A DNA stretch of 64,000 bases from Bacteroidales bacterium (GTDB taxonomy: Bacteria > Bacteroidota > Bacteroidia > Bacteroidales > JAQUTK01), in NCBI GenBank assembly GCA_028709785.1, contig JAQUTK010000014.1, positions 1-64,000 of the forward strand. The letters are read 5' to 3'. Made by a program: the position numbers and the translations under genes. Positions within the stretch are counted from its first letter, which is position 1. Each line of letters opens with the position of its first letter. The notes beneath the pieces were generated by a model. It searched no databases, was not told the origin of the DNA, and saw only the letters and a list, made by a program, of their open reading frames with translations. Below are positions 10,764 to 46,279 of the stretch, one piece after another.

Positions 10764-13148
10764 TTAATTTGTCTGGCTTTCAACAATCAAAACCTTGCAT
10801 ACTGAGGAGCGCCCATCATCGTACAAATCCTTACGGATATAGAGTCCCGCTTTAAGAGCAGAAAATGCATTTCCGGCATAAACGCCATCCAGTCTGTAAT
10901 AGTTCGAAGAGACAATCTCACCTTCCAGCGGAAGAACATTCGGTTGCTCACCGGTAATATGGTAACTCACTGGCTGAATACCGGAGCGAGACGGGCGAAC
11001 TGCCAGAATTGTATCAGCGCTAAACACCAACGAATCCATGCATACTTCTCTCGAATAGAGCGCACCATTGGGAATCGCAAAGCGATTATAAGCAATATAC
11101 CACTCATCTTTCTCCGGAATCTGAACAACCGAAGCTTGTCCCGGTGAAATGATACCCTTCGTCGCATCTCCTGATAGAATACTATATCCAACAGGCACCG
11201 TAATCGGACCGACAGGAGAATCAGACATTCCATATACCGTACGATACAGATTAGAGGAAGAAGTACCCCGCGACCAAACAAAATAATATTTCCCCTCGCG
11301 GAAAAAGACTTCCACACCTTCTTTAAAAGCGCCGGCGGAGGGAGTAATCACCTGCGTCGAACCCTCTTTGAGTGAAACCATATCCTCATTCAGTTCGGCG
11401 ACTGCCAGATAGCGTTGCCCCCAATAGATATAACTCTTACCAGAGAGTGGATCTGTAAATACATCCGGATAAAGCGGAGCACCTGTAGTTACAGAAGAAG
11501 GATTGATTGTGATCAATGGCGAACCGGAATCCACAAAAGGGCCCTTCGGACTATTACTTACTGCCACTCCAATCTTTTTGTCTGCACAATAATAAAAGTA
11601 ATATTTATACTCGCCATTCACACGCTTCTCCACAACAGAAGGAGCCCAGGCATACGACTCTGCCCAGGAAACATCAGCCAGATCCAAGGCCGTTCCCTCC
11701 TCCGCCCAGTTCAACATATCTGTGGAAGAAAACACCTTAAAAGCCGTACTTGCACCATCTGCAATACCGTCTGTTGTCGGATACATGTAATATTTGCCAT
11801 CCGAATGAGACAGCATCAGTTCAGGCTCTGCATAGTTTCCATTAATCACTGGATTATTTGCCAACTCAGCAGTTACGGTATACGTCTTGGAAGCCTGTCC
11901 ATCCATTGAAACCGTATAGCTCACACTACCCAGAGTGAAGTTCTGAGGTCCTGAAGGTGAGATCGTCATCACGGAGTCATTCCATGAATAAAACTGTGGA
12001 TCCAATGCCCCAACATCAGCACCCGATGTCAAAGGCAAGAAAATCGTACGACTGGTATTATCAATCTTCATTGCTTTCTGATTGATATACGGATTGCGCG
12101 CACCTCTCAGGGAAACAAAAGAAGCCCCCCATTTCTGTAGCAATGCCCCCTCTTCCGACATTGTAATCGGGATGACCGTACCATGTCGCGGAGTAAAGTC
12201 CATCGAGATATCTTTTACCACGGAGAAGTTCGTCAGGTCTGTAGAGGAACAAAACTCATAATAACCGGAACCATACACGTCATACATCAGAATATAGGTA
12301 TCAGAGTCTATGAGTTGAAAGACAGCCGGACCTTCCACGCCGCTTGCATTCTGATCAAGATATTGATTGTTTAGCGTCCACGGACCGGTTGCCGATGTTG
12401 AAGTCACCTTCTTAATCCCTTTGGGAGTCTCATCTTCACCTTCCGTCTTGAAAAACAGATGATAGGTACCATCCTTAAACACCATATTGCCATCAATCGT
12501 CGGTTTACCTCTGTCATAGAGCACTTTGGGTTCGCTGATATAAGTAAAGTCCTTATTTGCATACGCATAATAGATGATATCTCGATCCGGAGTGGGCTGT
12601 CTCATGGAGAAATAAAGCATATATTTCTGAGCTACCGGATCATAGATCGTCTCAGGAGCCCACACCCGAAGTACATCGCTATACTTGGCAAATGTTGTTG
12701 AGATATTAATCGCCGAAGCAGTCCAGTTGACCAGATCCGTTGATTTCAGCATCACCAAGCCACGATTGGACGACCATCCATCCGAAGACTTCATATCCGT
12801 CACCACCATATAAAATGTCTTGCCATCCTGAGCCCGGAGGATATGCGGATCACGCACCGCCCTCTTCTCCGCTATCTTGTCGGAAGGAATCACCGGATTG
12901 CCACCATTCAACGTAAAATAATGAAGTCCATCACGGCTGATTGCAAAATGAATCTGTTCCTGTGATTGAGCATTGCCGGTAAAATAGACAAAGAGATACC
13001 CTTTCATGGGCTCATCCACAGCGGCAATAGTCTTTGCAGGAGTTAATCGTTGAGCAGGGATACTCGTTACAGCCTGTCCATTGGTAGCACTCCACACCAG
13101 AGAGAGCACTGATGCTGCGAACACTCGCAACCAAGTAGTTGTTTTCAT
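10764..13148 (-). CDS. Tandem-domain GH43-type glycosidase
   Basis: This is a 794-residue secreted protein with two GH43-like propellers. I start it at MKTTTWLRVF (13148), which gives a good signal peptide (to about residue 24); the longer frame to 13229 begins with non-signal residues. The first propeller (about 35-340) has RDPHILRAQDGKTFY, TIDGNMVF and GVEGPAVF, an intact catalytic triad. A small beta-domain follows at about 340-420. The second propeller (about 425-760) has NYAEPELML where the general base should be Asp, then YPDVFTDP and EGVEVFF. The Asp-to-Glu change may weaken or abolish activity in that half. It is first in a pair with the smaller GH43 gene downstream. Confidence 0.85.
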   Translation of the reverse strand: MKTTTWLRVFAASVLSLVWSATNGQAVTSIPAQRLTPAKTIAAVDEPMKGYLFVYFTGNAQSQEQIHFAISRDGLHYFTLNGGNPVIPSDKIAEKRAVRDPHILRAQDGKTFYMVVTDMKSSDGWSSNRGLVMLKSTDLVNWTASAINISTTFAKYSDVLRVWAPETIYDPVAQKYMLYFSMRQPTPDRDIIYYAYANKDFTYISEPKVLYDRGKPTIDGNMVFKDGTYHLFFKTEGEDETPKGIKKVTSTSATGPWTLNNQYLDQNASGVEGPAVFQLIDSDTYILMYDVYGSGYYEFCSSTDLTNFSVVKDISMDFTPRHGTVIPITMSEEGALLQKWGASFVSLRGARNPYINQKAMKIDNTSRTIFLPLTSGADVGALDPQFYSWNDSVMTISPSGPQNFTLGSVSYTVSMDGQASKTYTVTAELANNPVINGNYAEPELMLSHSDGKYYMYPTTDGIADGASTAFKVFSSTDMLNWAEEGTALDLADVSWAESYAWAPSVVEKRVNGEYKYYFYYCADKKIGVAVSNSPKGPFVDSGSPLITINPSSVTTGAPLYPDVFTDPLSGKSYIYWGQRYLAVAELNEDMVSLKEGSTQVITPSAGAFKEGVEVFFREGKYYFVWSRGTSSSNLYRTVYGMSDSPVGPITVPVGYSILSGDATKGIISPGQASVVQIPEKDEWYIAYNRFAIPNGALYSREVCMDSLVFSADTILAVRPSRSGIQPVSYHITGEQPNVLPLEGEIVSSNYYRLDGVYAGNAFSALKAGLYIRKDLYDDGRSSVCKVLIVESQTN

Positions 13149-13269
13149 GTTATTCCATTTTAGTTTACAATCACATCCATTGCCACAGTCGAAAATAAAT
13201 GCGGGAGAGTAGTGGTGCAAAAATAACACTTATTCTGTAATTACATAAGATTCAGACAAATTAAATACA

Positions 13270-17409: not shown

Positions 17410-20343
17410 TTATCGATCCTTCGGTTTCAGATTAATCTCTTCTCTTTGTGTACCGATATGTCCGTTGAGATCAGTACCTTCTATCTCGAGTTGCAGGTTT
17501 CCTTTCATGTAAGCACCTACCGGGAAGGAGACTTCCACTTCTTGCTCGCCATTTGTCAGCAAAGCAGGGTTCCAATAATAGACATGTTTTCCATCGTAGT
17601 TGATCTGATCAATCTGGTCTTTCGGATAATACTTCGGCACATAGAAGTTCTTGGGGATGGAGCCGCCGAGCAGTTCTGTGTAGTAGGTGCTTTGACCTGT
17701 CCTGTCTCGCGCACCTCTTCCTGATTTCGTTGTGATAATAATGACGGAGGCTATTGGACGACCGTCATTATCAAGTACAAGTGTCTGGATAGGGCTAATT
17801 GTGTCCAGCTCCAGATTGTGATAATTAGAAAGATTATCTCTTGTTGTTAAAACTTCTATTCCTCTGACTTCCTTTCCGGGAATTGTCTTTAGTATATTTT
17901 CAACTCTTGCCATTTTCCCATATTCCATATCTTCGGCATTCATTATACCTTTAACAGAACTTGGTTCATTTAATTGCATTGAACCTGCGGAAGACATATA
18001 GGTGCTTGAACTTCGTTTCCGATAATCAGTAGAATCAGGAGAATCAGTACCCAAATAATATTGTTTTTTTCGTAGGCCGTTGCTTTGACCAACAAAACTG
18101 CTCACTACTGCATTATTGGAAGCCGAAGTAGTGCTATTATTCCTATTGATGATCTCCGCGTCAATCTGAAAGTAAACAGGTCTACCGTTAATGTTATAAT
18201 TGTCGTATGCTTTAAACTCTGAGGCTCCGTCTCCTTCTAGCGGCGAACTGTTGTCTATCTTAAACCCGGGAATCTCTGCTTTGAGAATATCAATCACATT
18301 GGCATACGCATCGTATCGACCGATCTGCACCGAGTCAATCACGATGTCTGCCACTCCGCTACCGCTTCTGTTGTATGAGTTCTTGATAACCTTTCGTTCG
18401 GTTACGGTGACTTCTCTAAGCAGGTGAATCCCTTTTTGTTTGCGAAGACTATCCAGATAAGCGTTGTCTTCTTCCTTTTTTTCTTCATAACCAAACATAA
18501 GGGAATCAACCTCTTCCGATTCATAGAGGTAATCTTCAAGAGGTACAATGGGGAACTTGGGCTTTTCGTATATGCTATCCAGCTTTATGCCGAGTCCCAG
18601 ATTCCGTTTATTCTTTGTCTTCTCAATATTGATTCTGGCAAACGAGGTCTCTCTGATGTCCAGATTTTCAAAAGCGAACCGTCCGTTCTTGTCCGTTTTG
18701 GTATCTTTGGCAATCGTCTTTCCTCCCTGCACAAACAAAGAGATCCTTCTTCCTACAATTGGTTTTAAGAGGAGGTTGACAACACTTCCTGAGACCGTGA
18801 AGGAAGTGTCGGGCCGATGTGTGAAACTCTTTCGTGTGACATCATTCCAGTTGTATCCTCTCCATCCGTGCGTGAGCAAGAGCAGATCGAGTTGTTTGCA
18901 GATGCTGTCATAGGGATTGTTGAAGTAATATCCCGGTGTTTCGATGAAACCTTTCAGATCGGAAGAGAGGAGCATCTCGGAACGGAAGGTCTTCTGGATG
19001 GAATCTACCGGCACCCGGTTCTTGTTGGTGACACTCACGGCAAAGGATCCGGCGACAGACTGTCCGCTGAGTTGCGGACGGATCTTCAGGGTCATCATCT
19101 GATCGGTATCGGACTTGATCTCCCAGTTTGCTTTGATGTCAAACTTCAGTTCGTCTTTCCGGTCGATGTACACCAGCCGTTCACAGAGTGGCTGTCCGTC
19201 GGCAGTAAAGAGGGTGAGGCGGTTGATACCGGACTTCAGGTTCTCTTTGGGAACAGGAACGAGGACGCGGGACTTGTTCATCCTGATGTTATATGCCTCT
19301 CTGGTGGGTAGTCCGCGGGATTCGGCAAGGAGGGTAAACTGTGTTTGGTTAGCAACGACACCCGAAGAACCATTGACTGCAACGAAAAGTGTATCAGAAG
19401 TTGGTTTGGAAACAACCATGAGCGTGACTCCTTCCTTTTCGACAGCAGGCAGAGGGATGAGCTGGTCGTTAAACAGACGGGCGGAGTACTGTTTGCCTGT
19501 GTCCGGTAGCAACACGAACGATCCCATTCCTTTGTGTTCGGAGGTAAAGGAAACAATATCGTTTCCTTTCTGATCGACAATAGTACCCTCTACGGCAACG
19601 CTTCTTCCATCGGGAAACAGTGCTTTGTATGCCACCCGGTTGGGTACCCCTGCAATCAGTTTGCCTCCTTCGGGCAGGAACTGCACATCCAGTTCCAACT
19701 CCCGGTTAGCTTTCTTCTGTGCTTCCAGCAATTTCTCTTCTTCTGCTTTCTGTTTGCGTTTCTGAAATTGTCCCTGTGTGATAAAGACCTCTTTATTGGA
19801 CGCATTGGTTATAAATACGAACCTTTTGTTTTCCTGTTCCTTGTCTTTGTCTCCCCAGATCGGAATGATCTTCTCGAAACAGACGGAGTCGCCGAAGTTC
19901 TTCTGCCAACGGGTATAGGCACGGATGCGGTAGATTCCTTTGTCCTGAATGGCTTTGGTGAGCACAAACTGTCCGTTGGCACTTCCTCCTTTGAGTGTGT
20001 ATTGTGCGCTTTGGGTCACCCTGTTTGCTTCATTGATCAGATCGACATAGACCAGCTGACTCTTTTCGGTGGGCAGGAGTGTTCCTGCCTGCATGACCCA
20101 TACCTTGTACCAGATGGTGTCATAGAGGTTATAGATGGGACGGTCCATTTGAATATAGATCTTCTCAGGATAGTTATCTCTCATGAGAGAGGCCATGGCG
20201 GTGATCCGTTGCCCCAGAGTTATTTGGTTTTTTCCTGTGTTACTATTCTCCGACAAAGCCTTGCTCCATCCATTCAGACTTATAATAAACAAGACTGTAA
20301 TGAGTGCCAGGAAGTAAACCTCCTTTTTGAATGCTTCTTTCAT
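17410..20343 (-). CDS. MG2/plug-domain surface protein, copy B
   Basis: This 977-residue paralogue of 14520-17381 has the same order of signal peptide, MG2 domain, beta-sandwiches, regulatory-like domain and plug-like region, again with no barrel. It is 24 residues longer. The extra length is in the variable region (about residues 725-815), where copy B has an insert around SFVGQSNGLRKKQYYLGTDS. The mature N-terminal third is identical to copy A at the DNA level for about 670 bp, and flanking parts differ by scattered substitutions. It follows propeller B by 25 bp and precedes copy A by 28 bp on the minus strand. A long plus-strand frame across it is antisense coding shadow, also seen in copy A. 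Function unknown; perhaps a surface receptor or anti-protease-like structural protein. Confidence 0.8.
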   Translation of the reverse strand: MKEAFKKEVYFLALITVLFIISLNGWSKALSENSNTGKNQITLGQRITAMASLMRDNYPEKIYIQMDRPIYNLYDTIWYKVWVMQAGTLLPTEKSQLVYVDLINEANRVTQSAQYTLKGGSANGQFVLTKAIQDKGIYRIRAYTRWQKNFGDSVCFEKIIPIWGDKDKEQENKRFVFITNASNKEVFITQGQFQKRKQKAEEEKLLEAQKKANRELELDVQFLPEGGKLIAGVPNRVAYKALFPDGRSVAVEGTIVDQKGNDIVSFTSEHKGMGSFVLLPDTGKQYSARLFNDQLIPLPAVEKEGVTLMVVSKPTSDTLFVAVNGSSGVVANQTQFTLLAESRGLPTREAYNIRMNKSRVLVPVPKENLKSGINRLTLFTADGQPLCERLVYIDRKDELKFDIKANWEIKSDTDQMMTLKIRPQLSGQSVAGSFAVSVTNKNRVPVDSIQKTFRSEMLLSSDLKGFIETPGYYFNNPYDSICKQLDLLLLTHGWRGYNWNDVTRKSFTHRPDTSFTVSGSVVNLLLKPIVGRRISLFVQGGKTIAKDTKTDKNGRFAFENLDIRETSFARINIEKTKNKRNLGLGIKLDSIYEKPKFPIVPLEDYLYESEEVDSLMFGYEEKKEEDNAYLDSLRKQKGIHLLREVTVTERKVIKNSYNRSGSGVADIVIDSVQIGRYDAYANVIDILKAEIPGFKIDNSSPLEGDGASEFKAYDNYNINGRPVYFQIDAEIINRNNSTTSASNNAVVSSFVGQSNGLRKKQYYLGTDSPDSTDYRKRSSSTYMSSAGSMQLNEPSSVKGIMNAEDMEYGKMARVENILKTIPGKEVRGIEVLTTRDNLSNYHNLELDTISPIQTLVLDNDGRPIASVIIITTKSGRGARDRTGQSTYYTELLGGSIPKNFYVPKYYPKDQIDQINYDGKHVYYWNPALLTNGEQEVEVSFPVGAYMKGNLQLEIEGTDLNGHIGTQREEINLKPKDR
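19496..20166 (-). repeat. Identical tract shared by the two MG2 genes (copy B)
   Basis: Partner of 16534-17204. No mismatch was seen in 671 bp, in contrast to substitutions every 10-40 bp elsewhere in the pair. This is the pattern expected of recent gene conversion or very recent partial duplication. Confidence 0.85.
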
Positions 20344-35436: not shown

Positions 35437-35580
35437 TTAATTGTTCTGAAACAGAAAACTACAAAAACCAGAATAGTTTTCTTGTTTACTGAAATTTAAC
35501 AGAATTAGTTCGAAGAAGGAAACTGACAAGGGCTTTTCGGGGTTCGTTTCTTTTGAGAGGGGACGTACAAAGATTCACCT

Positions 35581-35712
35581 TTATACAATCTCCACTTTTA
35601 GCCTCAACTTCAACGCTTCGGAAATCTTTTCTATCTGTTGGCGTTTCTGTACAGTTGAGCTATGCGTAATTAGGTACAGCCCTTTGCCTATTTCCTTTTG
35701 ACACAAGCAAAA
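35581..35712 (-). pseudogene. In-frame remnant after the Fic stop codon
   Basis: The reading frame of the Fic gene continues past its TGA (35713-35715) for 43 codons to a TAA at 35581-35583. It includes GKGLYLITHSSTVQKRQQIE and ends in ALKLRLKVEIV. The stretch is protein-like and ends like some small XRE antitoxins, but that resemblance is weak. It has no start codon of its own. It is either a remnant of another gene or the lost tail of a longer Fic protein. Confidence 0.4.
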
Positions 35713-37086
35713 TCATTCATCCATTTTATGGATGGCCTTTTCAACAGGTTCCGTTAGCACCTGTTTGAACAAGGACGTAATCGTATCCATTTCCTCCTTA
35801 GAAGGGACTTCCCCATACGCAAAATCTTTTTCGCAAAAGTCTGCTATGTGATACTTATCTTTTAAAAAAAGGATATGAAAAGAGAGTTTTATTTCCAATT
35901 GACCCAGAACTTCTTTTTTTTCTTTTTTTGGTGAGGTAATGTGGCAATTGAACCATACGGATTTTGCTTCTCTGATATAGTCTTCGGCATTTCTCAAATC
36001 GGGTCCGACATTCAGTCCACCTTCAGCACACGTGCTTTTTGACAGCCTTGTAGATTTTGTCAAATAACAAAACCATTGGTTAGAAAGGGAGATTATAGCC
36101 TTATCAAATTGGGAGACTAAAGGAAAATACACCGCCCCCAACACTTTACGAACCTCTTCTTCACTGATATATTTCTTTTCCTGTTTCATCTTTTGTTGCA
36201 ATTTACGATCCAATAGGGTCAACCGCTTATCAAAATCATCTTCCTCTTCGATACTTTCACCTTTAGCCGCCTTTATTGACACTTCCAAAGAATGGATCAG
36301 GCAACTTTCCAGATAGTCAACGAAAGGTCGTATTTTGTTCAACGGAGCATTGGCACCATCCGAAGGCATAAGACCGACTTCCACATCGCATTGATGAAGT
36401 ACGCTCAAATAACGATCTTTATCTTTTGTCTGTACCACAATCATCGGGTATTCGCAACGATGCAACACAAAATTTGTCAATAAACGGGCAATTCGTCCGT
36501 TTCCATCTTCAAATGGATGGATACGGATATAACGGTAGTGCAGTAGAGCGGCCAATTGAAGAGGCGACATCTCACTTTTCTCGGATACTACATTATACCA
36601 CTCCACCAACGAAGTCATAAAAGACGGCGTTTCCTCGGGTGCAGCATAGTCGAAGATTTCACCTGTAACCGTGACAACGGAATTCGGACGTGTTTTATAT
36701 GTTCCCGTTTTCACAAACATTCGAATATTCTGACCATCCGGAGTACGGGCATTTTTCCAATAATCCTGAACCAGAATGGTGAGATTGAGATTACGAATGA
36801 AATTCTCGGTTAACGGGCGTTGCTTATCCTCTGCTTCTTGTTTCATCAATTCCAGCCCAATGTTGTGTGCTTTCATCTCTTCATAATCTCTCAGTTTAGC
36901 GCTACCAGACGTTTCTCCGAACAGAAGCAACAATTCGGTTTGTCCGTAAGACAGTGTATTACCCTCAATGTGATTGGAGTTATAATTGAACTCGAGCCGG
37001 AATTTATCATCTAATCTCTTTCGATCTTTCACTTGGAGTGGTTGAAGCGACAACCATTCATTATACAGTTGATTAATTTTTTCCAT
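35713..37086 (-). CDS. Fic-family protein (probable AMPylator, self-inhibited)
   Basis: This 457-residue Fic-domain protein has the complete active-site motif HPFEDGNGRIAR, with catalytic H189. An N-terminal SNHIEGN motif (residues 37-43) fits the inhibitory [S/T]xxxE[G/N] element, so it is probably a class II, self-inhibited Fic enzyme. Such enzymes transfer AMP or a related group from a nucleotide to a protein hydroxyl. The C-terminal ~190 residues are charged and include a long helix rich in Lys/Glu (DKRLTLLDRKLQQKMKQEKK). It follows the HEPN-type gene by 2 bp and belongs to the AT-rich accessory block. The target is unknown, and a host-defence or toxin role is inferred from the neighbours. 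Confidence 0.88.
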   Translation of the reverse strand: MEKINQLYNEWLSLQPLQVKDRKRLDDKFRLEFNYNSNHIEGNTLSYGQTELLLLFGETSGSAKLRDYEEMKAHNIGLELMKQEAEDKQRPLTENFIRNLNLTILVQDYWKNARTPDGQNIRMFVKTGTYKTRPNSVVTVTGEIFDYAAPEETPSFMTSLVEWYNVVSEKSEMSPLQLAALLHYRYIRIHPFEDGNGRIARLLTNFVLHRCEYPMIVVQTKDKDRYLSVLHQCDVEVGLMPSDGANAPLNKIRPFVDYLESCLIHSLEVSIKAAKGESIEEEDDFDKRLTLLDRKLQQKMKQEKKYISEEEVRKVLGAVYFPLVSQFDKAIISLSNQWFCYLTKSTRLSKSTCAEGGLNVGPDLRNAEDYIREAKSVWFNCHITSPKKEKKEVLGQLEIKLSFHILFLKDKYHIADFCEKDFAYGEVPSKEEMDTITSLFKQVLTEPVEKAIHKMDE

Positions 37087-37088
37087 AC

Positions 37089-39041
37089 TTAATCTTTTAG
37101 TTTCAAAATTTCATTGTCAATATTCAATATGAACTCATCGTATTTTGAGGATACGTCGATAAGAATCTCATCTAATCCTCGATTTGATGTTCTAAGTCTT
37201 TCTATTAAAGCTCTGATAATGCTACCGCTGATATTCTGTGCTTTGTTTGCATATATACCGATTAAATATTGGGGATATACAGCATTATGTGCTATCAGGT
37301 TTCTTAATCTGTATATTAATATGATGTCATTAAATATTTCCTTTTCCTTCTTATTAATACCATCCTTGTTCTTGTAGAAAGAATTAAGCTCGTGTAGTTT
37401 CGTTTTTAGAATTTCGTCATTAATATTCTCTTCAATCTCTTTTATGTGATTAAAAAACTTATTAATATGGACTTTATCTCCAACTTTCATATTTAGAGAA
37501 GCCTTTTCAATGATGACTTCTGGAATATCAAAAAAATTATTATTGAATTGAGTGTTGTTATAAATGTTTGTATATGTGTTAAACCAGTAGTTGTAAAAAA
37601 AACTTTTAACTATTATTGAAGCTGCAATTTTCTGCACAGTTTTAGTTTGAATATTATTTGCCTCCTTATTTTCAGTATGAGAGACTCCAATAGTAACATC
37701 GGTTTTAAGCAGACTTTCAATGGCAACCCAATGAAACAACAATTTATCTTCTGTTTTCTTGGGATACTTTCCTTTTTGGTACCAATGTGCAGCTGTAGCA
37801 AGTTTTAATGTATCACAAGTCGGGTTTTTATGAATAAAAGTGAAGCGTTCATCTATCTCAGCTAAGTCATTTTCAAAAGGGGAAACGTCTAAAGATTTCA
37901 TATATCCAACAAATTCCTGATGTTTTGATGAAGTGGCTTCGTCTCCGATTGTTAAATTAATTCCACCGATGCATCTACCATTTTCGACAATCGAAACATC
38001 TCTGTCGCTATATTTAATTGGTGCGGATGTATTGAACGATAATGATAATAAATCGATAACGTGCTCTAATCTCTGCTTTGCATAAGAAACGGAGGATCGC
38101 AACATCTTATGTTTGACAGGTATCGCAGCGTTTATCACTTTTCGATCAGAAGTAGTTTGTTCTATTTTCGAAAATGTTGGAGTTTCAGCAATATATTGTT
38201 TTAAATGAGGATCATATATATTAATATCATCTATCATACAATTAGTAAATCCTTTTATTCCTTTCAATCGGAATAAGACAAAGCAATCTTTAGGTTCAAT
38301 GTTGTAGTAATCACTTAAAATTGAGATTCTTTCTTCTATAGACCTTTTCTCTATATAATCCTCTATGGCTTTGTGGTAAGATTTTTTATTGTCGTAATCC
38401 TCCCTGTTTAATCCTTTATAAGTATTGGGAGCACTTGAAACAGTTCCACCCTCAATTCTTAAAATATCCGGTATATCATGCTGAATAGATTTAATATCAT
38501 CAATGTCAAAGCCATTTGCTATAAACTCTGAGATAATTAATTCGGTGTATTTATTTATTTCTTTCTTTGTATCATAGTCCAACGTTTGGGCGTTAGTGAT
38601 AGTGCTAATTAATTTCTTTAGTAAGCCATCAAAGTAAGTTCCTTTATTAAACTCGGCGTTAATTTGCTTGCACAGAGATAAAATGTGTTTACAATAAGTC
38701 TTCCTGTTTTCTTTCTTTTGATTTTTCACCTGTTGAAAGAATTCATCCCATTTCTGCTGAAGTGATGTTACATTGTCATGGAATAGATCGTTAAAAACCG
38801 CATCCTTATTATCCCATTCACTTAATTGATCCTTAAAAAGTTGGCTATTGTCTTTATTCTTTAGGTTATTGTATTCAATCTCAGATATTATGTTATCAAT
38901 GAGAAATCTGGGGCTATCAAGTGTAACCTCATAGTTGCCCTCTTCACCTAATTTTTCAGTGAAATAACTCCAATACTTTTCCCAGTATTCAATGGGAGTT
39001 TTTATAGGTAAACGTAGTATTTTTCTTATAGAATCATTCAT
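37089..39041 (-). CDS. Large HEPN-type protein of an accessory defence-like block
   Basis: This 650-residue cytosolic protein has no signal or TM segments. Near the C terminus, RLRNLIAHN holds the R-x4-H motif of HEPN ribonucleases (R580, H585). Upstream of it, LLFHWVAIESLLKT resembles the first helices of ApeA-like HEPN domains. The first 400 residues are not recognised; they are Asn/Lys/Ile-rich and probably helical, with a beta-rich part around 250-380. The gene is markedly AT-rich compared with its neighbours, a sign of transfer. Its ATG directly abuts the TAA of the methylase remnant, and it is 2 bp from the Fic gene. I infer a toxin or abortive-infection RNase; the HEPN call rests on one motif and context. 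Confidence 0.65.
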   Translation of the reverse strand: MNDSIRKILRLPIKTPIEYWEKYWSYFTEKLGEEGNYEVTLDSPRFLIDNIISEIEYNNLKNKDNSQLFKDQLSEWDNKDAVFNDLFHDNVTSLQQKWDEFFQQVKNQKKENRKTYCKHILSLCKQINAEFNKGTYFDGLLKKLISTITNAQTLDYDTKKEINKYTELIISEFIANGFDIDDIKSIQHDIPDILRIEGGTVSSAPNTYKGLNREDYDNKKSYHKAIEDYIEKRSIEERISILSDYYNIEPKDCFVLFRLKGIKGFTNCMIDDINIYDPHLKQYIAETPTFSKIEQTTSDRKVINAAIPVKHKMLRSSVSYAKQRLEHVIDLLSLSFNTSAPIKYSDRDVSIVENGRCIGGINLTIGDEATSSKHQEFVGYMKSLDVSPFENDLAEIDERFTFIHKNPTCDTLKLATAAHWYQKGKYPKKTEDKLLFHWVAIESLLKTDVTIGVSHTENKEANNIQTKTVQKIAASIIVKSFFYNYWFNTYTNIYNNTQFNNNFFDIPEVIIEKASLNMKVGDKVHINKFFNHIKEIEENINDEILKTKLHELNSFYKNKDGINKKEKEIFNDIILIYRLRNLIAHNAVYPQYLIGIYANKAQNISGSIIRALIERLRTSNRGLDEILIDVSSKYDEFILNIDNEILKLKD

Positions 39042-39194
39042 TTATATCATTGGTTTTATCATTGATTCGATAAATGCGATTTCTTCATCTGTCAAACCAT
39101 ATTTTGCATAGAGTTCTGCGTCTGTCCATGATTTTGTAAAGTTTTGGAAAGTAACAAACGCAAAATTTAACTTTGAAAAGTGCTGGGTGGATGT
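39042..39194 (-). pseudogene. C-terminal remnant of a restriction-modification DNA methylase
   Basis: A frame open from after a stop at 39195-39197 to the TAA at 39042-39044 encodes FAFVTFQNFTKSWTDAELYA followed by KYGLTDEEIAFIESMIKPMI. The WTD-x-x-LY-x-KYGLT-x-EEIAFIE ending is very typical of large type II adenine methylase/restriction proteins. The rest of the enzyme is missing and the frame has no start. The remnant overlaps, in another frame, the tail of the XRE frame at 39085-39354. The HEPN-type gene starts immediately after the stop, as a downstream operon partner would. Confidence 0.72.
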
Positions 39195-39354
39195 TTATTG
39201 AGCAATAAGGAAGCGTGCAAATTTCGTTCGGTCGAGGGTGGTTATTATACCATCTTGAGACCGTAGCAGGAACTTTCCCTAATTGTTCGCCAAACGATTT
39301 CTCGTTCATAGTCTTCTCAACAAGAAGTATTTTCAGCCTGTTTATCTGCTTCAT
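39085..39354 (-). pseudogene. XRE-family regulator truncated by a deletion
   Basis: Residues 1-45 (LKILLVEKTMNEKSFGEQLG, then VPATVSRWYNN) match the XRE regulators that commonly precede type II methylase/restriction genes in Bacteroidales. After NIHPALF (about residue 58) the frame runs into the out-of-frame methylase remnant, so the last ~30 residues (FCVCYFPKLYK and on) are not native. The structure is best read as the front of the regulator joined to the back of the methylase by an internal deletion. A shortened DNA-binding protein could still be made. Confidence 0.55.
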
Positions 39355-39696
39355 ATCAGCTTTTGTAATGACCTAAAGCACAAAGTTATTAATTTAATTG
39401 ATATTATGTTATAGTGACGAAGTGATAAAAAACCAAAAGTAATTTATTCTTCAGACCGAAAAGCAATTGGAGATTTTTTCTGTTTGATTAATGCAGTACT
39501 TTCTATTAAAGCTCGATAAAACGGAACTCAATGAAAGGATTGTCTTTCCCTCAAAGCGTTCATTGCGCTTGACCCGGGTCTCTCTCCCGTTTGCCTACGG
39601 TTGACTTTCCGTTCAACGAACGTCAAACGGAACAAACGTCCTTGTGCGCGGATTCATGCATAAGGACGCGTGAATCGGTTTGTCGGTCTGTTCTAA

Positions 39697-39762
39697 TTTG
39701 TATTGTATGATACTCCCATTTGTACTGTATGTTCTTCCGGTTTGTATTGTATGTTCTTCCGG
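39697..39762. repeat. Three tandem 22-bp repeats
   Basis: The copies are 39697-39718, 39719-39740 and 39741-39762. The last two differ at one base (TTTGTACTG versus TTTGTATTG), and the first diverges in its second half. There are no spacers, so this is not a CRISPR array. The copies are two helical turns apart, as in iterons. Confidence 0.85.
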
Positions 39763-39870
39763 TTTCATCAAGTAGTTTTTGGCGGTTGACCTTTTCTGAA
39801 GTAAGTCTGGGAAATTCCTGTTGTTTTTTTGAATTTCGATTTAGGAATGAGTAAAAAAGTACTATTTTGC

Positions 39871-39910
39871 TGCACCTCTGCACCTCCGAGCTGCCTTCCA
39901 GCATACTGTA
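39871..39910 (-). repeat. Inverted partner of 40229-40268
   Basis: Read on the minus strand this begins TACAGTATGCTG and contains AAGGCAG and two GGTGCA units. It is about three quarters identical to the plus-strand segment at 40229-40268, allowing small gaps. Confidence 0.6.
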
Positions 39911-40032
39911 TGGCATGTCAGTAACGTCAAAAAAACATTGCTCTCCGATTTTTGCATCCATTTTTATTTGCTCAAAGGCCCTTTTTCATACATTCTCAGT
40001 TACACTTTCCATTTCTATGTAGAAATTCGTCC

Positions 40033-40068
40033 AAAGATATACGGTTAACTTCGGAAAGATATACGGTT
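40033..40068 (+). repeat. Two 14-bp direct repeats with 22-bp period
   Basis: AAAGATATACGGTT occurs at 40033-40046 and again exactly at 40055-40068. The 22-bp period equals that of the tandem repeats at 39697-39762. Confidence 0.85.
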
Positions 40069-40076
40069 CGCTTGAC

Positions 40077-40118
40077 AAAGTTTTCTAATAGTTAGGAACC
40101 AAACTATTAGAAAACTTT
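40077..40118. repeat. 17-bp perfect hairpin
   Basis: The arms 40077-40093 and 40102-40118 are perfect complements with the 8-nt loop AGGAACCA. Both arms contain the T4/A4 tract of AAGTTTTC, so it could act as a terminator, but no gene ends beside it. Confidence 0.8.
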
Positions 40119-40228
40119 TGGGATTGATGGGGTCAGATTGCAGAAATGGTTACAAAATGCCCTCGAGCAAACAAAAATGGAAGCAATTATTGACCGAGCA
40201 AGTAAAAAGTCGAAAGGCCAAACTACCC

Positions 40229-40268
40229 TACAGCATGCTGTAAGGCAGGTCTTGGTGCACTTGGTGCA
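40229..40268 (+). repeat. Palindrome-containing repeat, partner of 39871-39910
   Basis: It opens with a perfect 14-bp palindrome (TACAGCATGCTGTA, 40229-40242), then AAGGCAG and two GGTGCA units. See 39871-39910 for the inverted relative. Confidence 0.65.
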
Positions 40269-40542
40269 TTGAAATTGGGGGTATTAGCCTTTTGAAGAAT
40301 GAAAATAAAAAAAAATCCAGGAAGAGTTTCCGTCAGAAGCATTCTGAAATCTTTGTCGATGCATGCTACTACAAAAAGTGAGAGTAAAAGCTTCATTCTT
40401 TTGAATGATTTGAAACTTTTTATTAATTTCGTGCCGATCACATCTGCAAACTATTTACCGAACTCTCGTTTCGAGAGAAAAAAGGAAAGTAACGAGTGTT
40501 ATCCCGGCAGCAATATTTGAAACTTAATTAGGAAGTACTACA

Positions 40543-41085
40543 ATGAAACGTATCGGTGAAAGAATAAATGCAAAAAGAAAACAGCTGAACCTGCAATTAA
40601 ATGATCTGGCAAAAAAGGTAGGTATAAGCCCCAGTGCTCTTTCGCAGATTGAAAAAGCCAAAGCTTTTCCATCCATTATTACCCTAAAATCTATTGCTGA
40701 AAATTTATATACGACAGTAGGTGAACTGATTGGTGAAAATGAGACTCTGAGCAAGAATCCTGTTATGCAGAGAAACGAAATGAAATTCGTGGAGAGAAAC
40801 AGTTCAGGTACTGAAATATTTTTGATTACGCACCACGACCTTAACAAACAAATGGACACCTACTTTGTGCGATTCATTCAGGGTTCTGATTTGGTAGATT
40901 TATTCACTGCCAATTCCGGTCAGATTTTTTGTTACGTTGTTTCCGGCGAAATATCTTTCAACTTAGATGCCAAAGATTATTTGCTACATGTGGGTGATAG
41001 TATCTATTTTAATTCGAAAACAACGTACTCAGCCATCAATAATTCAGATAGCATTTGTGAATTACTCTGGATTATATCTGGTTAA
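40543..41085 (+). CDS. XRE-cupin transcriptional regulator
   Basis: This 180-residue cytosolic regulator has an N-terminal XRE helix-turn-helix (about 5-60; LAKKVGISPSALSQIEKAKA) and a C-terminal cupin fold (about 100-178; FCYVVSGEISFNLDAKDYLL, then VGDSIYFNS). This architecture senses a small molecule, often an amine or amino acid, and controls nearby catabolic genes. It lies upstream of and co-directional with the aminotransferase cluster, 220 bp away, and a 14-bp palindrome sits in that gap. I infer that it controls the cluster. The left side is the repeat-rich region, so it marks the start of this unit. Confidence 0.88.
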   Translation: MKRIGERINAKRKQLNLQLNDLAKKVGISPSALSQIEKAKAFPSIITLKSIAENLYTTVGELIGENETLSKNPVMQRNEMKFVERNSSGTEIFLITHHDLNKQMDTYFVRFIQGSDLVDLFTANSGQIFCYVVSGEISFNLDAKDYLLHVGDSIYFNSKTTYSAINNSDSICELLWIISG

Positions 41086-41196
41086 AAAACTTACAAAAGA
41101 GTAATATCCCTTATCCGTTTTCAAACAATGACACTTAAAACCTACTAAATATAAATGTATAACTTTCCTGAAAGATATATCAAAAATTAAGCACAA

Positions 41197-41210
41197 CTTA
41201 ATTAATTAAG
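41197..41210. promoter_or_regulatory. Candidate operator palindrome upstream of the aminotransferase
   Basis: CTTAATTAATTAAG is a perfect 14-bp palindrome. It ends 12 bp before the -7 box at 41223-41230, so a bound protein would cover the -33 region. The XRE-cupin protein encoded just upstream is the obvious candidate binder (inference). Confidence 0.45.
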
Positions 41211-41222
41211 AAGAAAAATCAT

Positions 41223-41230
41223 TACCTTTG
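41223..41230 (+). promoter_or_regulatory. -7 box of the aminotransferase-DUF4914 cluster
   Basis: TACCTTTG fits TAnnTTTG and lies 75 bp upstream of the aminotransferase start. The -33 position lacks TTTG. Confidence 0.55.
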
Positions 41231-41305
41231 TCGCTCAATAGGAGACTAAACTAAAATATATCAGCATCTTTTTAAAAGGGATAGCACTATAAATACACAA
41301 TAAAA

Positions 41306-42610
41306 ATGGACAATCAAGCTTTGACTCTAAACAACACAATCGAAAAGACTAATTCAAACGTGTTGGAAATGCTCTCTGAACGTGGTAAAAATATTTTCTT
41401 CCCTAAACTTGGCATTTTAGCTCAATCGGCTCAGGCAAAAGGGAAAAAGATAAATGCAACTATCGGCGAAGCTGTTGAGGACGATGGCTCATCAATGCAT
41501 CTTCCTGAGTTTGATGCTTTGCTTAATATGCCAACGGCAACTATTTTTCCGTATGCACCGAGTTTTGGTAAACCTGAACTGCGGACGCTTTGGAAAGATT
41601 CTATCTATCGTAAGAATCCATCACTGAAAGATACTGTTATCAGTAATCCAATTGCGACCAATGGACTTACACATGGCATTAGTATGGCAGGCTACCTGTT
41701 TGCTAACGAAGGTGATACAGTTTTACTATCTAACCATTACTGGGAAAATTACAATTTGATATTCGAAAACAACTACGGTGCGAAAGTTTCAACCTTCGAA
41801 CTTTTTGATAACGGAGGTTTTAATGTGGCCGATTTCTCAAAACAACTAAATAAGATTGAGAGAGAGAAAATCATTACACTCCTGAACTTTCCAAACAATC
41901 CATCCGGTTACACACCACTTACCTCGGAAATTAAAGCTATTGTAGCTGAAATCAAGAAAGTGGCTGATAAAGGTAAAAAAGTGGTCGTGCTTATTGATGA
42001 TGCTTACTTTGGTTTGGTTTATGAAGAGGGTGTTTTCACGGAATCCATCTTTGTTGAGCTAGCTAATCTGTCGGAAAATGTGCTGGCTGTTAAAATGGAT
42101 GGGGCAACCAAAGAGGATTATGTATGGGGATTTCGTGTAGGCTTTATAAGTTATGCGATAAAAGGTGGCACGGCTGAATTGTATGAAGCACTTGAAAACA
42201 AAACGGCTGGTGCTGTACGTGGAAATATTTCAAACATCAGTCAATTGTCTCAATCGTTATTGTACAAAGTATATTCTGCTCCAACATATGACGAGTCAAA
42301 AAAGAAAAAATTTGAGATCCTAAAGAATCGGTATCAGGTTCTTCGCACCGAAATATCAAGATCTCAATATGCAGACTATTTTTGCGCTCTTCCTTTCAAT
42401 TCAGGATACTTTATGTGTATCGAACTAAAAAAAGGATTACAGGCAGAAGAAATACGTAAGCATCTTCTCACAGAATATAGTACCGGTGTCATTGTTCTTG
42501 GAAATGTGATCCGTCTCGCGTTTTCAGCTGTACCTCAGTCTCAATTGCCACTATTGGTTGAAAACCTCTATAAAGCATGTGTTGATTTAGACACAAAGAG
42601 CAAAGCTTAA
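41306..42610 (+). CDS. PLP-dependent class I/II aminotransferase
   Basis: This 434-residue cytosolic fold-type I aminotransferase has the expected cofactor and substrate residues: NFPNNPSG (N194-N198), IDDAYFGLVY (D231/D232, Tyr234), the probable Schiff-base Lys K269 in GATKED, the phosphate-binding WGFRVGF, and a C-terminal NVIRLAFS with the carboxylate-binding Arg. The sequence most resembles the aromatic/broad amino-acid branch, but the specificity is open. It is the first structural gene after the XRE-cupin regulator and is followed by DUF4914 after 66 bp. It would convert an amino acid to a 2-oxo acid, or the reverse, in whatever pathway this cluster serves. Confidence 0.88.
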   Translation: MDNQALTLNNTIEKTNSNVLEMLSERGKNIFFPKLGILAQSAQAKGKKINATIGEAVEDDGSSMHLPEFDALLNMPTATIFPYAPSFGKPELRTLWKDSIYRKNPSLKDTVISNPIATNGLTHGISMAGYLFANEGDTVLLSNHYWENYNLIFENNYGAKVSTFELFDNGGFNVADFSKQLNKIEREKIITLLNFPNNPSGYTPLTSEIKAIVAEIKKVADKGKKVVVLIDDAYFGLVYEEGVFTESIFVELANLSENVLAVKMDGATKEDYVWGFRVGFISYAIKGGTAELYEALENKTAGAVRGNISNISQLSQSLLYKVYSAPTYDESKKKKFEILKNRYQVLRTEISRSQYADYFCALPFNSGYFMCIELKKGLQAEEIRKHLLTEYSTGVIVLGNVIRLAFSAVPQSQLPLLVENLYKACVDLDTKSKA

Positions 42611-42676
42611 CAACGCGTCAGCTAACTGAATTCACGAAGTAATAAAAGTTTAATAACTATTTAAAAGACAAGCAAC

Positions 42677-44599
42677 ATGAAAGATTTCTTTAAGGTATTG
42701 GAGAAGAAGCGAATTACTTTGCCGGATGATGTGTATGTATTATTGAATAGTTGTAAAAAGTTTACTGTTTACAACTCAGTGGAGCAATTGGCTGAAGCAG
42801 CAGTAGGAGGTCCGAACGAAACAAGCTATGAGGTTAAATATGATATTCCCGGAAAAGGAGAATACACAGAAGCAATCATTCACAAGGTGACAAACGGAAT
42901 CTCTGCGAATTACACGGACGCATACATGCGGAGGCGTGATCCGGATACAATGGTAATTGCGGATAACCTGCCCAGCGACAAAACTCGTTTCAAGGATAAA
43001 TATGGTTATGAATTTGATTTGCTGAAAGCAGAGACCTTTGAATGGATGAAGAATCAGGAACTGGCGGTTTTCTTCTATTTTGCCGGTAATAATGGAATTG
43101 GCGTGAGCGGAATTGCTATCGCACCTGCCAACGCGGGATTTTTCGCAATGGGTTTGGCTATGTTGCAGCGTATTGTTCCGATTGCCGATTTAGTCGATGA
43201 ACTGAACATTGATTCTATTATTTATGTGGCTCCTACTTTCCGCCATACACATTTCAACGGGAAACAAGTGGTGGTGCATAACCGCACAGAGAATCGCCAC
43301 GAAATCTATTCCTATAATCTTTATCCGGGTCCAAGTGCCAAGAAGGGATTGTATGGCGCATTACTGACCAAAGGTGAAAGAGAAGGATGGATCACGGCTC
43401 ATTGTTCTACGGTACAGGTCATTAGTCCCTATGATAATATAACGACTTTTATGCACGAAGGTGCAAGTGGTGGTGGCAAAAGTGAAATGTTGCAACACAT
43501 CATTCGTGAGCCAAATGGCCAGGTGATGATTGGTGAAAACATCATGTCCGGCGAAAAACGTCTGATTAATTTATCGCTGTTTTGTTCCTTTAATCCGGTG
43601 ACTGACGACATGGCATTATGTGCCAAATCGATTCAGAAGGACAATGGGAAAGTGACGGTTTTGGATGCAGAAAACGCTTGGTTTATCCGGGTGGACAGTG
43701 TCAATGAATATGGAGACGATCCGGCACTTGAGAAACTGACCATTAAGCCTAAAACTCCATTGTTGTTTTTGAATATAAAGACTTATCCCAATTGCACAGC
43801 ATTGATCTGGGATCATACAGAAGATGAACCCGGCAAAAGATGTCCTAACCCAAGGGTTATTGTTCCACGAAACATTGTACCATCGGTAGTCAACAAGCCT
43901 GTGACTGTTGATGTAAGAAGTTTTGGGGTGCGCACCCCGCCATCTTCCATGGAGAACCCAAACTATGGTATTTTCGGACTTTTCCATATCTTACCTCCTG
44001 CCCTGGCTTGGCTATGGAGATTGGTATCGCCACGTGGACATGCTAATCCAAGTATTATTGGCGGCGACGGAATGGCATCGGAAGGTGTTGGCTCCTACTG
44101 GCCTTTTGCTACCGGCAAAATGGTGACGCATGCGAATCTTCTGTTGGAGCAGATTGTACAAACACCACGTATGAGATATACCTTGGTTCCCAATCAATAT
44201 ATTGGTGTATGGAAAGTCGGATTTAAACCTCAGTTGCTTATGCGCGAATACCTGGCTCGCAGAGGAAACGCACAGTTGCGTGCCGACCAATATCAGCCCG
44301 CCAGATGTCCGTTGTTGGGGTATGAATTGAATTATCTGACCATTGAAGGTGCTAAAATCCCGTCCCGATTTCTTCAGGTTCACCGCCAACCGGAAGTGGG
44401 AGTGGTTGGATATGATGCGGGAGCTGAGATGCTGACTGAGTTCTTCAAAAAAGAGTTACAGCAGTTCCTGACACCGGAGTTAAATCCATTGGGACGGAAA
44501 ATCATTGAAGCGTGTTTGGCTAATGCTTCCGTAGAAGAATACAATGAAATTATTCCAATGAATTATCAGTATTCATTTCTGACAACAAAAGAACAATGA
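42677..44599 (+). CDS. DUF4914 P-loop protein
   Basis: This 640-residue cytosolic protein of family DUF4914 has no established function. A clear Walker A motif GASGGGKSEM spans residues 262-271 (nucleotide-binding K268, S269). The G-x-SG-x-GKSE form is that of HPr kinase/PEP carboxykinase-type P-loops rather than of ABC or AAA ATPases. The C-terminal half has a Pro-rich segment (FGVRTPPSSMENPNYGIFGL) and a hydrophobic ILPPALAWLWRLVSPRG. It sits 66 bp after the aminotransferase and 13 bp before the Sua5 gene, clearly one operon. I infer a kinase or carboxykinase-like enzyme acting on a small organic acid. This is inference from the P-loop type, not an assignment. Confidence 0.85.
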   Translation: MKDFFKVLEKKRITLPDDVYVLLNSCKKFTVYNSVEQLAEAAVGGPNETSYEVKYDIPGKGEYTEAIIHKVTNGISANYTDAYMRRRDPDTMVIADNLPSDKTRFKDKYGYEFDLLKAETFEWMKNQELAVFFYFAGNNGIGVSGIAIAPANAGFFAMGLAMLQRIVPIADLVDELNIDSIIYVAPTFRHTHFNGKQVVVHNRTENRHEIYSYNLYPGPSAKKGLYGALLTKGEREGWITAHCSTVQVISPYDNITTFMHEGASGGGKSEMLQHIIREPNGQVMIGENIMSGEKRLINLSLFCSFNPVTDDMALCAKSIQKDNGKVTVLDAENAWFIRVDSVNEYGDDPALEKLTIKPKTPLLFLNIKTYPNCTALIWDHTEDEPGKRCPNPRVIVPRNIVPSVVNKPVTVDVRSFGVRTPPSSMENPNYGIFGLFHILPPALAWLWRLVSPRGHANPSIIGGDGMASEGVGSYWPFATGKMVTHANLLLEQIVQTPRMRYTLVPNQYIGVWKVGFKPQLLMREYLARRGNAQLRADQYQPARCPLLGYELNYLTIEGAKIPSRFLQVHRQPEVGVVGYDAGAEMLTEFFKKELQQFLTPELNPLGRKIIEACLANASVEEYNEIIPMNYQYSFLTTKEQ

Positions 44600-44612
44600 A
44601 CAACGTGGTAGA

Positions 44613-45578
44613 ATGATAGAAACCGGAACTGATATAGCATATGCTGCAAAATGTATTGCTGAAGGCAAATTAGTGGCATTTCCGACAGAAACTGTGTATG
44701 GATTGGGTGCAAATGCATTCAATCCATTGGCAGTTGCACGTATTTTTGAGGTGAAACAACGCCCTACTTTTGATCCATTGATTGTTCATATCTCAGAAAT
44801 AAGCCAGATAAATAACTTATATGACAGTAATATAAGCGATTTAGTTTATGCATTGGCTCAAGCTTTTTGGCCGGGACCGCTCTCTATTGTGCACAAAAAA
44901 TCGTCTGGCGTGCCTGATATTGTGACTGCAGGAATGGACACTGTCGCCGTTCGAATGCCCTCCCATCCTATTGCTTTGGAATTAATCCGATTGTCTGGCA
45001 CACCTATTGCAGCTCCAAGTGCCAATCGCTTTGGTCAGCTCAGTCCTACCCGACCGGAACATGTGCAAAAGCAACTGACCGATGTAGCCTATCTGTTGAA
45101 GAATGACTATGAAATGGTAGGTGTTGAGTCTACTGTTGTTTCAATTCAGGATGGAAAATGTGTATTATTGCGTCCCGGTGCTATCTCATTGACCGATATA
45201 CAAAAAGTGGTTCCTTGTACTGCTATCGCAAAAGACTCTTCACAGGATAAACTTCATGCACCCGGATTATTGAAAAGTCATTATTCACCCAATAAGCCCT
45301 TGTATATCCTTAAAGGAGATATAAATAATCTGCCTCTCAACTCGGGACTTATTTTGCATCAAAAACGAACTACTTTTACAAACGCGAATAGTGTTCTTTA
45401 CACTTCAGACACTCTTAACTCAGTAGAAATTGCAGCCAATTTATTCATTGCATTGCATACGATGGAGGACGATCCTACTGTCTCTCAGATATTCATTGAA
45501 TCAGTAGAAGAAACTGGTTTGGGAGTTGCAATAATGGATCGAATTCGAAAAGCGAGTTATAGATATAGACAAGTTTAG
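44613..45578 (+). CDS. L-threonylcarbamoyladenylate synthase (Sua5/YrdC-family)
   Basis: This 321-residue enzyme makes threonylcarbamoyl-AMP from threonine, bicarbonate and ATP, normally the first step of t6A37 tRNA modification. The YrdC domain (about 1-205) has FPTETVYGLGANAF, VKQRPTFDPLIVHI (the K-x-R motif), AAPSANRFGQLSPT and GVESTVVSI. A C-terminal Sua5-type domain follows from about 215. The placement is unusual, in an operon with an aminotransferase, DUF4914 and a carbonic anhydrase that could supply bicarbonate. Whether this is the housekeeping copy or an extra one cannot be told from the window. Confidence 0.9.
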   Translation: MIETGTDIAYAAKCIAEGKLVAFPTETVYGLGANAFNPLAVARIFEVKQRPTFDPLIVHISEISQINNLYDSNISDLVYALAQAFWPGPLSIVHKKSSGVPDIVTAGMDTVAVRMPSHPIALELIRLSGTPIAAPSANRFGQLSPTRPEHVQKQLTDVAYLLKNDYEMVGVESTVVSIQDGKCVLLRPGAISLTDIQKVVPCTAIAKDSSQDKLHAPGLLKSHYSPNKPLYILKGDINNLPLNSGLILHQKRTTFTNANSVLYTSDTLNSVEIAANLFIALHTMEDDPTVSQIFIESVEETGLGVAIMDRIRKASYRYRQV

Positions 45579-45606
45579 TGGGTATATTTATACAAAAGAG
45601 AAAGAT

Positions 45607-46149
45607 ATGACTCCTCTGATAGCCGTTCAATCAATGGAAAATATTCTTCCTGTTTATCGTCAAACGCCAATCGGACTACTTTTTGAATATCACAATCTAA
45701 ACCGACAGTTCGATGCGTTTGACAATGCTCAGCTTTTGGTGGGTATGTGCATGGATAACCGGAAACATCTACACATGCCTGACAATTTTGCTTATATTAT
45801 TCGTTCGGGTGGTGCAAACTTACGATACAGTGAGTTCAAAGTTTCTTATGCCATTGCTGTTGGTCAAGTTCGCTATATTGCGCTGATTGGTCATAACAAT
45901 TGCGGAATGGTCAATTTAAATTCCCGGAAAAAACTCTTTATAGATGGACTCGTTGAAAATGCCGGTTGGAAAAGAGATAAAGCCGAGGAACATTTTATGC
46001 AATTTGCACCCATGTTTGAAACAGGTAACGAGACAGAATTTATTTTAAGCGAAACAAGACGTCTGAGATTACTTTATCCGAAAGTTATAATTGCACCCAT
46101 GTTTTACCTGGTCGAAGACAATAGGCTTTATTTTGTAAAAGAAGAGTAG
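45607..46149 (+). CDS. Beta-class carbonic anhydrase-like protein
   Basis: This 180-residue cytosolic protein has the zinc ligands and dyad of beta-carbonic anhydrases: C48 and D50-x-R52 in GMCMDNRK, and H96-x-x-C99 in GHNNCGM. The RSGGANLR loop fits too. It is slightly short for the family. It interconverts CO2 and bicarbonate. It is the last gene of the operon, 28 bp after the Sua5 gene, and a large nested hairpin follows. The operon suggests that it feeds bicarbonate to Sua5 or to a carboxylation step (inference). Confidence 0.85.
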   Translation: MTPLIAVQSMENILPVYRQTPIGLLFEYHNLNRQFDAFDNAQLLVGMCMDNRKHLHMPDNFAYIIRSGGANLRYSEFKVSYAIAVGQVRYIALIGHNNCGMVNLNSRKKLFIDGLVENAGWKRDKAEEHFMQFAPMFETGNETEFILSETRRLRLLYPKVIIAPMFYLVEDNRLYFVKEE

Positions 46150-46179: not shown

Positions 46180-46259
46180 CCGATCCAAAGATTATCTACT
46201 AGTTTTGTGCAAAACCAATAGATAATCTTGTTGTTTTATGCGGATATATTTTGGATCGG
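46180..46259. terminator. Nested double-hairpin terminator
   Basis: An outer stem CCGATCCAAA (46180-46189) / TTTGGATCGG (46250-46259) overlaps an inner stem AAGATTATCTA (46188-46198) / TAGATAATCTT (46219-46229), which itself encloses GTTTT/AAAAC. On the plus strand the inner stem is followed by a T-rich stretch. It lies between convergent gene ends (carbonic anhydrase and GH29). Confidence 0.75.
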
Positions 46260-46279
46260 GTCTCTCCTCTTTTTAGCGG

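Follow-up and report, generated by a model that had tools for sequence, protein, structure and literature searches.

Results

Organization of the operon

The window, a 64,000-nucleotide stretch of a contig from a 3.55-Mb genome whose closest named relatives are Bacteroidales (several of them labelled Paludibacter), contains five plus-strand open reading frames encoding an XRE-cupin regulator, an aminotransferase, a DUF4914 protein, a Sua5 protein, and a short carbonic anhydrase (Table 1). The genes are separated, in that order, by gaps of 220, 66, 13, and 28 bp, just as the first-pass annotation of this DNA had it. The palindrome and the large terminator that it placed on either side of the operon were also recovered, the former as CTCTCGTTTCGAGAG upstream of the XRE gene (approximately positions 40463-40477, read from the sequence) and the latter as a long hairpin after the last gene. 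A HAD phosphatase and PurE, both recurrent in DUF4914 loci elsewhere, are absent from the operon in the window.

Table 1. Genes and sequence features of the DUF4914 operon in the window
Feature	Position	Strand	Evidence
XRE-family HTH and cupin regulator, 180 aa	40543..41085	+	HTH_3 and Cupin_2 above cut-off
Operator AATTAAGCACAACTTAATTAATTAAG	41185..41210	+	Contains the perfect palindrome CTTAATTAATTAAG; motif AATTAAGYANNACTTNATTWATTAAG
TACCTTTG, Bacteroidota-type -7 promoter box (TAnnTTTG) of the enzyme operon	41223..41230	+	
Class I PLP aminotransferase, 434 aa	41306..42610	+	NF006388, 536 bits; 2x5f, E 6e-106
DUF4914, 640 aa	42677..44599	+	PF16260; ATP-PEPCK structure match; hhalign to PckA
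DUF4914 P-loop GASGGGKS, residues 262-269	43460..43483	+	Sequence; aligned with PEPCK P-loops
Sua5, threonylcarbamoyl-AMP synthase with C-terminal domain, 321 aa	44613..45578	+	PF01300 and PF03481; TIGR00057
Short divergent beta-carbonic anhydrase, 180 aa	45607..46149	+	Pro_CA, 24.1 bits; CxDxR, HxxC
Long hairpin, likely terminator	46180..46260	+	Fold -25.9 kcal/mol, z -3.1

DUF4914 and the PEP carboxykinases

The DUF4914 protein covers the whole PF16260 profile (E 1.5e-295), which is its sole Pfam match, as neither PEPCK_ATP nor PEPCK_GTP scored above its cut-off. Sequence searches of the PDB with the single protein and with an 18-member profile returned no PEP carboxykinase (PEPCK), and a 36-member profile placed Thermus PckA first with a weak score (E 0.063). 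Outside the PDB, the DUF4914 profile matched, weakly, PckA-like proteins of about 540 residues. Profile-profile alignment with hhalign linked DUF4914 to ATP-PEPCK at E 1.1e-6 with 18 sequences, 5.7e-8 with 40 sequences, and 8.4e-10 for the N-terminal half. The alignment with GTP-PEPCK was weaker (E 0.003) and set P-loop on P-loop and the TDDMA segment (T-D310-D311-M-A) on GDDIA.

Two AlphaFold (AF2) models of DUF4914 (pLDDT 59.4 and 68.8) were compared with known structures; confidence in the better one is moderate, with its minimum around residues 430-480. Every listed top PDB match of both models is a PEPCK, with best Foldseek E-values of 6e-12 and 2e-18. By VIA-align, the better model matched Thermus ATP-PEPCK at Z 24.6 (476 residues, 3.2 Å), and the scores were Z ~21.5 against GTP-PEPCK and Z 21.2 (566 residues, 3.4 Å) against PPi-PEPCK. 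The P-loop had been described as being of the HprK/PckA form. The motif itself and the PckA superfamily hold. An HprK fold was set aside, since the alignment with PEPCK takes in both domains over model residues 4-618, the full length of the protein, and the listed top structures are all PEPCKs. It is thus nearly certain that DUF4914 belongs, over its full length, to the PEPCK superfamily, of which it is a divergent member; it forms a separate branch rather than a PckA.

The metal-binding and catalytic residues of PEPCKs (Lys-Lys, His, P-loop Lys-Ser/Thr, and Asp-Asp) are all found in DUF4914, where the counterparts of the tyrosine, lysine pair, histidine, and aspartate pair are Y216, K222/K223, H242, and D310/D311. 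In hhalign, PckA aligns the lysine pair, the histidine, and the P-loop, and GTP-PEPCK aligns the histidine, the P-loop, and the aspartate pair, with the lysine pair a few columns off. R85-R87, Y216, K222, K223, H242, K268, S269, D310, D311, and R419 are invariant in 40/40 DUF4914 homologues reaching down to 52% identity, and so are the residues of the P-loop, apart from one glycine that is kept in 39/40. Judged by eye, R85-R87 and R419 would be the substrate arginines. The coexistence of DUF4914 with canonical PEPCKs described below would suit a catalytically inactive relative that has taken a role in regulating metabolism, but such invariance makes this highly improbable. The earlier suggestion that DUF4914 acts as a carboxykinase is therefore plausible, given the modelled PEPCK fold and the conserved catalytic residues.

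DUF4914 differs from each known type of PEPCK. With ATP-PEPCK (PckA, PF01293, EC 4.1.1.49) it shares the whole fold, the tyrosine, lysine, histidine, and P-loop residues, and central-carbon neighbors; however, it is only ~14% identical, is not matched by PF01293 in the Pfam scan, is about 100 residues longer, has a longer stretch between the P-loop and the aspartate pair, and is linked to PurE, Sua5, and carbonic anhydrase. GTP-PEPCK (PF00821, EC 4.1.1.32) has the same fold, a similar length, and the GDDIA segment that aligns with DDMA of DUF4914, but the sequence similarity is marginal and the guanine-site residues are not assignable. PPi-PEPCK (6k31, 8e1u; EC 4.1.1.38) gives the largest aligned part of DUF4914, whereas the known enzymes have about 1100 residues and no sequence match to the PDB chains appears at E ≤10. 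At the donor site, the C-terminal part of DUF4914 is unalignable to PEPCK by sequence, and the structural comparison gives the largest overlap with PPi-PEPCK and the top Z with ATP-PEPCK. In the portion consulted, a review of the PEP-pyruvate-oxaloacetate node lists ATP-, GTP-, and PPi-dependent PEPCKs and no further type (PMC8100219). A search of the open literature returned no paper for DUF4914, PF16260, or IPR032583, and the broader open PEPCK literature yielded reviews and nothing on the DUF4914 family.

Regulator, predicted operator, and promoter

The XRE-cupin protein is probably a local repressor, and its homologues occur in 11 other DUF4914 loci, mostly at 54-84% identity. The idea that it senses an amine gained no support, as the protein scored 61 bits against the PuuR equivalog model of NCBIfam, whose cut-off is 211. 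A 26-bp motif, AATTAAGYANNACTTNATTWATTAAG, occupies the gap between the XRE-cupin gene and the gene that follows it, and in many cases it is also found 5' of the XRE-cupin gene. It was built from 15 instances, whose high scores are therefore so by construction. As independent support, the operator of Table 1, located between the XRE and aminotransferase genes, is the only site in the window and the sole match at ≤3 mismatches in the whole genome. Its palindrome, which the first-pass annotation did not mention, is more informative than CTCTCGTTTCGAGAG. Weaker sites outside the training set were found 5' of DUF4914 in loci L028 and L032. A genome-wide search of G342 returned two similar loci, which may represent two strains in one MAG, each with XRE-cupin, HAD phosphatase, and aminotransferase genes followed by citrate synthase. 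One match, in a ribosomal-protein cluster (L163), is clearly false. As a TAnnTTTG box lies 29-38 bp past the start of the operator in 18/18 sites inspected, the operator covers the -33 region; this predicted overlap with the expected -33 box suggests that the operon may be repressed through it.

The close relative L025 has neither an XRE-cupin gene at the corresponding place nor the operator. A segment of about 5.2 kb within window positions 35501-41286 is missing at the same place in this relative (6070-6609). It comprises a Fic-like gene (35713-37086, named by eye), a neighboring minus-strand gene (37089-39041) for a 650-aa protein that matches no Pfam family, and the XRE-cupin gene with the operator.

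Aminotransferase, Sua5, and carbonic anhydrase

The aminotransferase belongs to the class I/II family, with 2x5f as its nearest solved relative, and is probably of the aspartate type. It turned up in Paludibacter-like loci and in G342 only, in the latter together with the operator, the HAD phosphatase, and the XRE-cupin gene.

The Sua5 protein resembles the threonylcarbamoyl-AMP synthases Sua5/TsaC in having both domains (YrdC, 184 bits; Sua5 C-terminal, 74 bits) and the motifs of the family, and it scores 185 bits against TIGR00057 (cut-off 123). Unlike those enzymes, it lies inside an accessory operon, in a genome with three YrdC-family genes in all; the other two are a copy in an fmt cluster (C11), presumably the housekeeping TsaC, and a copy beside fabI (C65); the fmt and fabI neighbors were named by eye. 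Full-length Sua5 is present in 219/296 genomes of the phylum and in 6/41 Bacteroidales relatives, and in three of these six it stands beside DUF4914. This adjacency is modest evidence, because the window genome and a congener account for two of the three.

The last gene of the operon falls just short of the Pfam Pro_CA cut-off of 25.7 bits; it carries the zinc ligands and the Asp-Arg dyad (C48-x-D50-x-R52, H96-x-x-C99). Its product appears to be a divergent relative that may work like a beta-carbonic anhydrase rather than a certain member of the family. Three carbonic-anhydrase families occur beside DUF4914, namely the short form of the window, PF00484 in L034 (with a homologue in L037), and PF20393, encoded some 5 kb upstream of DUF4914 in L139 and in overlap with its end in L143. 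With roughly three independent cases in about 35 loci and a handful of carbonic-anhydrase genes per genome, this linkage is, by rough estimate, well above chance. Together with the recurrent PurE, these families strengthen the CO2/bicarbonate theme that the first reading had drawn from Sua5 and carbonic anhydrase. In L026, a 29-residue carbonic anhydrase fragment with stops in three frames follows Sua5 (6443-6529) and represents a decayed copy.

Distribution and coexistence with canonical PEPCK

DUF4914 is patchily distributed. It is present in 7/41 relatives, gave eight full-length matches in a set of 296 genomes from the phylum of the window, and was found in 12/285 genomes of the L041 phylum (once as a short broken match only). 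The latter phylum is probably a different one, since the two sets have no genome in common. Thermotoga maritima is the only one of 14 control genomes to carry DUF4914, which was also found in a Phycisphaerae MAG. A search of plasmids for DUF4914 gave no match. In a viral collection, one DUF4914 gene was seen in a Firmicutes-like record (L156, 1-3372), where it directly adjoins a tyrosine-recombinase-like integrase of a prophage.

The window genome also carries PckA, and a canonical PEPCK coexists with DUF4914 in most genomes: among 14 DUF4914 genomes, nine have ATP-PEPCK and five have GTP-PEPCK. Simple replacement of PEPCK by DUF4914 was rejected as a general rule on these counts, and the activity of DUF4914 may be redundant or different, since a normal PEPCK is present in most of its genomes, including that of the window. 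Neither ATP- nor GTP-PEPCK was found in G029 or, in the control searches, in T. maritima, both of which have DUF4914.

Recurrent neighborhoods

The linkage expected from the first reading recurs in other genomes. The arrangement seen repeatedly in Bacteroidota is XRE-cupin, HAD phosphatase, DUF4914, class II PurE, Sua5, and sometimes carbonic anhydrase, and G037 has MFS-PurE-Sua5-DUF4914 with a divergent XRE-cupin gene. In the L041 set, the genes DUF4914-MFS-PurE-HAD are all present in L149, while L147 has no HAD gene and the PurE of L148 came from a separate search; L139 of the same set has Por/Kor-DUF4914-x-PurE-PurK-MFS, with Por/Kor upstream (its PorA-like subunit named by NCBIfam below the cut-off) and PurK named by eye. 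Central-carbon enzymes are also found, such as an OadA/PycB protein and malate dehydrogenase upstream of DUF4914 in L034, aconitase-citrate synthase-isocitrate dehydrogenase (IDH) downstream in L029 and L030, and pyruvate dehydrogenase (PDH) upstream in L136; PurC lies downstream in L141 and L144. Aconitase, citrate synthase, IDH, OadA/PycB, malate dehydrogenase, PckA, PurC, and PDH E1 beta were named by NCBIfam. In Flagellimonas (L040, 8001-11771), DUF4914 is immediately followed by PckA, and a second PckA is present at another place. In L028 (1-2727), DUF4914 is preceded at a distance of about 5 kb by a LarB/LarC/LarE-like gene set for the nickel-pincer cofactor, named by eye.

At many DUF4914 loci these partners are all missing, which weighs against the module proposed below. 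Several loci have unrelated neighbors, which, together with the wide occurrence of full-length Sua5 in Bacteroidota, would be expected of a chance grouping of housekeeping genes. However, the linkage is not due to chance, since XRE-cupin, DUF4914, Sua5, HAD phosphatase, and PurE recur across genomes, in different orders and lineages. The genome-unique operator and the scarcity of full-length Sua5 in Bacteroidales relatives, half of whose copies adjoin DUF4914, also argue against chance, and a sole Sua5 gene, once named as a sign of it, is not what this genome has. Taken together, a chance grouping is very improbable.

The first-pass annotation had proposed a pathway in which a carbamoylated or carboxylated amino-acid derivative is built or degraded by Sua5, DUF4914, and the aminotransferase. 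Sua5 does adjoin carbonic anhydrase, and the aminotransferase shares the operator with the system, but nothing points to such a product: many DUF4914 loci lack Sua5 and the aminotransferase, the set has no enzyme to use a carbamoyl-AMP product, and the neighbors are enzymes of oxaloacetate/TCA metabolism and purine carboxylation. We consider this pathway very improbable.

The PurE of the Bacteroidota operons, which lies outside the window, is closest to the class II AIR carboxylase of Treponema denticola (3rg8), with which it shares the SAHK and AGRSNALSG motifs, and it usually occurs beside a separate class I PurE. G037, G340, G342, G343, G539, G548, G581, and G607 have it in addition to another PurE, and in G345 it is the sole PurE found. 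Deviations in the operon PurE were seen in L147, L149, and L033-L037, with AAALPG, in which the histidine is lost, for AAHLPG and AGMSN for AGRSN; at a conserved site, these may mean a changed function. Purine-base degradation was considered as a reason for the PurE link, and no supporting gene was found.

These PurE features bear on another explanation, in which DUF4914 retains the fold and metal site of PEPCK but either has a different beta-keto acid as its substrate or phosphorylates some other metabolite, the operon being an undescribed pathway with PurE-like, HAD, and MFS steps. The usual presence of a canonical PEPCK, the mostly second-copy and sometimes deviant PurE, and the recurrence of the HAD phosphatase and the MFS transporter in DUF4914 loci are in its favor. 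It is nevertheless unlikely, as the main PEPCK catalytic residues are retained and ordinary oxaloacetate/TCA enzymes are neighbors in several lineages.

Discussion

PEP carboxykinase is a CO2-using enzyme that connects the breakdown of sugars with the TCA cycle. On balance, we lean toward reading the operon as a regulated CO2/oxaloacetate module built on DUF4914 as a PEPCK, and DUF4914 itself probably performs the PEPCK reaction. The enzyme would convert PEP plus CO2 to oxaloacetate and back, with transfer of the phosphoryl group, and the carboxylating (anaplerotic) direction is the most likely one here. The aminotransferase would then convert oxaloacetate to aspartate, and in relatives the citrate synthase, aconitase, and isocitrate dehydrogenase of the neighborhood or regulon would carry oxaloacetate to 2-oxoglutarate. 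Carbonic anhydrase may balance CO2 and bicarbonate for DUF4914, for Sua5, which uses bicarbonate, and, in relatives, for PurE, which uses CO2. The XRE-cupin protein, bound to the operator over the -33 region, would repress the operon until some small molecule is sensed. The HAD phosphatase, Sua5, MFS, and TerC proteins have no clear place in the oxaloacetate scheme.

A more speculative proposal, which we regard as possible though somewhat doubtful, is that DUF4914 constitutes an undescribed further class of PEPCK, possibly PPi-dependent, and perhaps the only PEPCK in Thermotoga maritima. The XRE-cupin operon would then be a switch for CO2-dependent isoenzymes (carboxykinase, AIR carboxylase, carbonic anhydrase, and Sua5) when CO2 or oxaloacetate-derived metabolites change.

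DUF4914, a family of so far unassigned function in Bacteroidota, Planctomycetota, Thermotoga, and others, is now tied to the PEP-oxaloacetate junction of metabolism. If active, it would fill or duplicate the PEP-oxaloacetate step, including in organisms that lack a known nucleotide-dependent PEPCK, and the operon would bring together, under a predicted operator, a small group of enzymes that consume CO2.

Elsewhere in the window, two pairs of neighboring open reading frames may be tandem paralogues, one at 7209-9674 and 10764-13229 (821 and 821 aa) and the other at 14520-17381 and 17410-20343 (953 and 977 aa).
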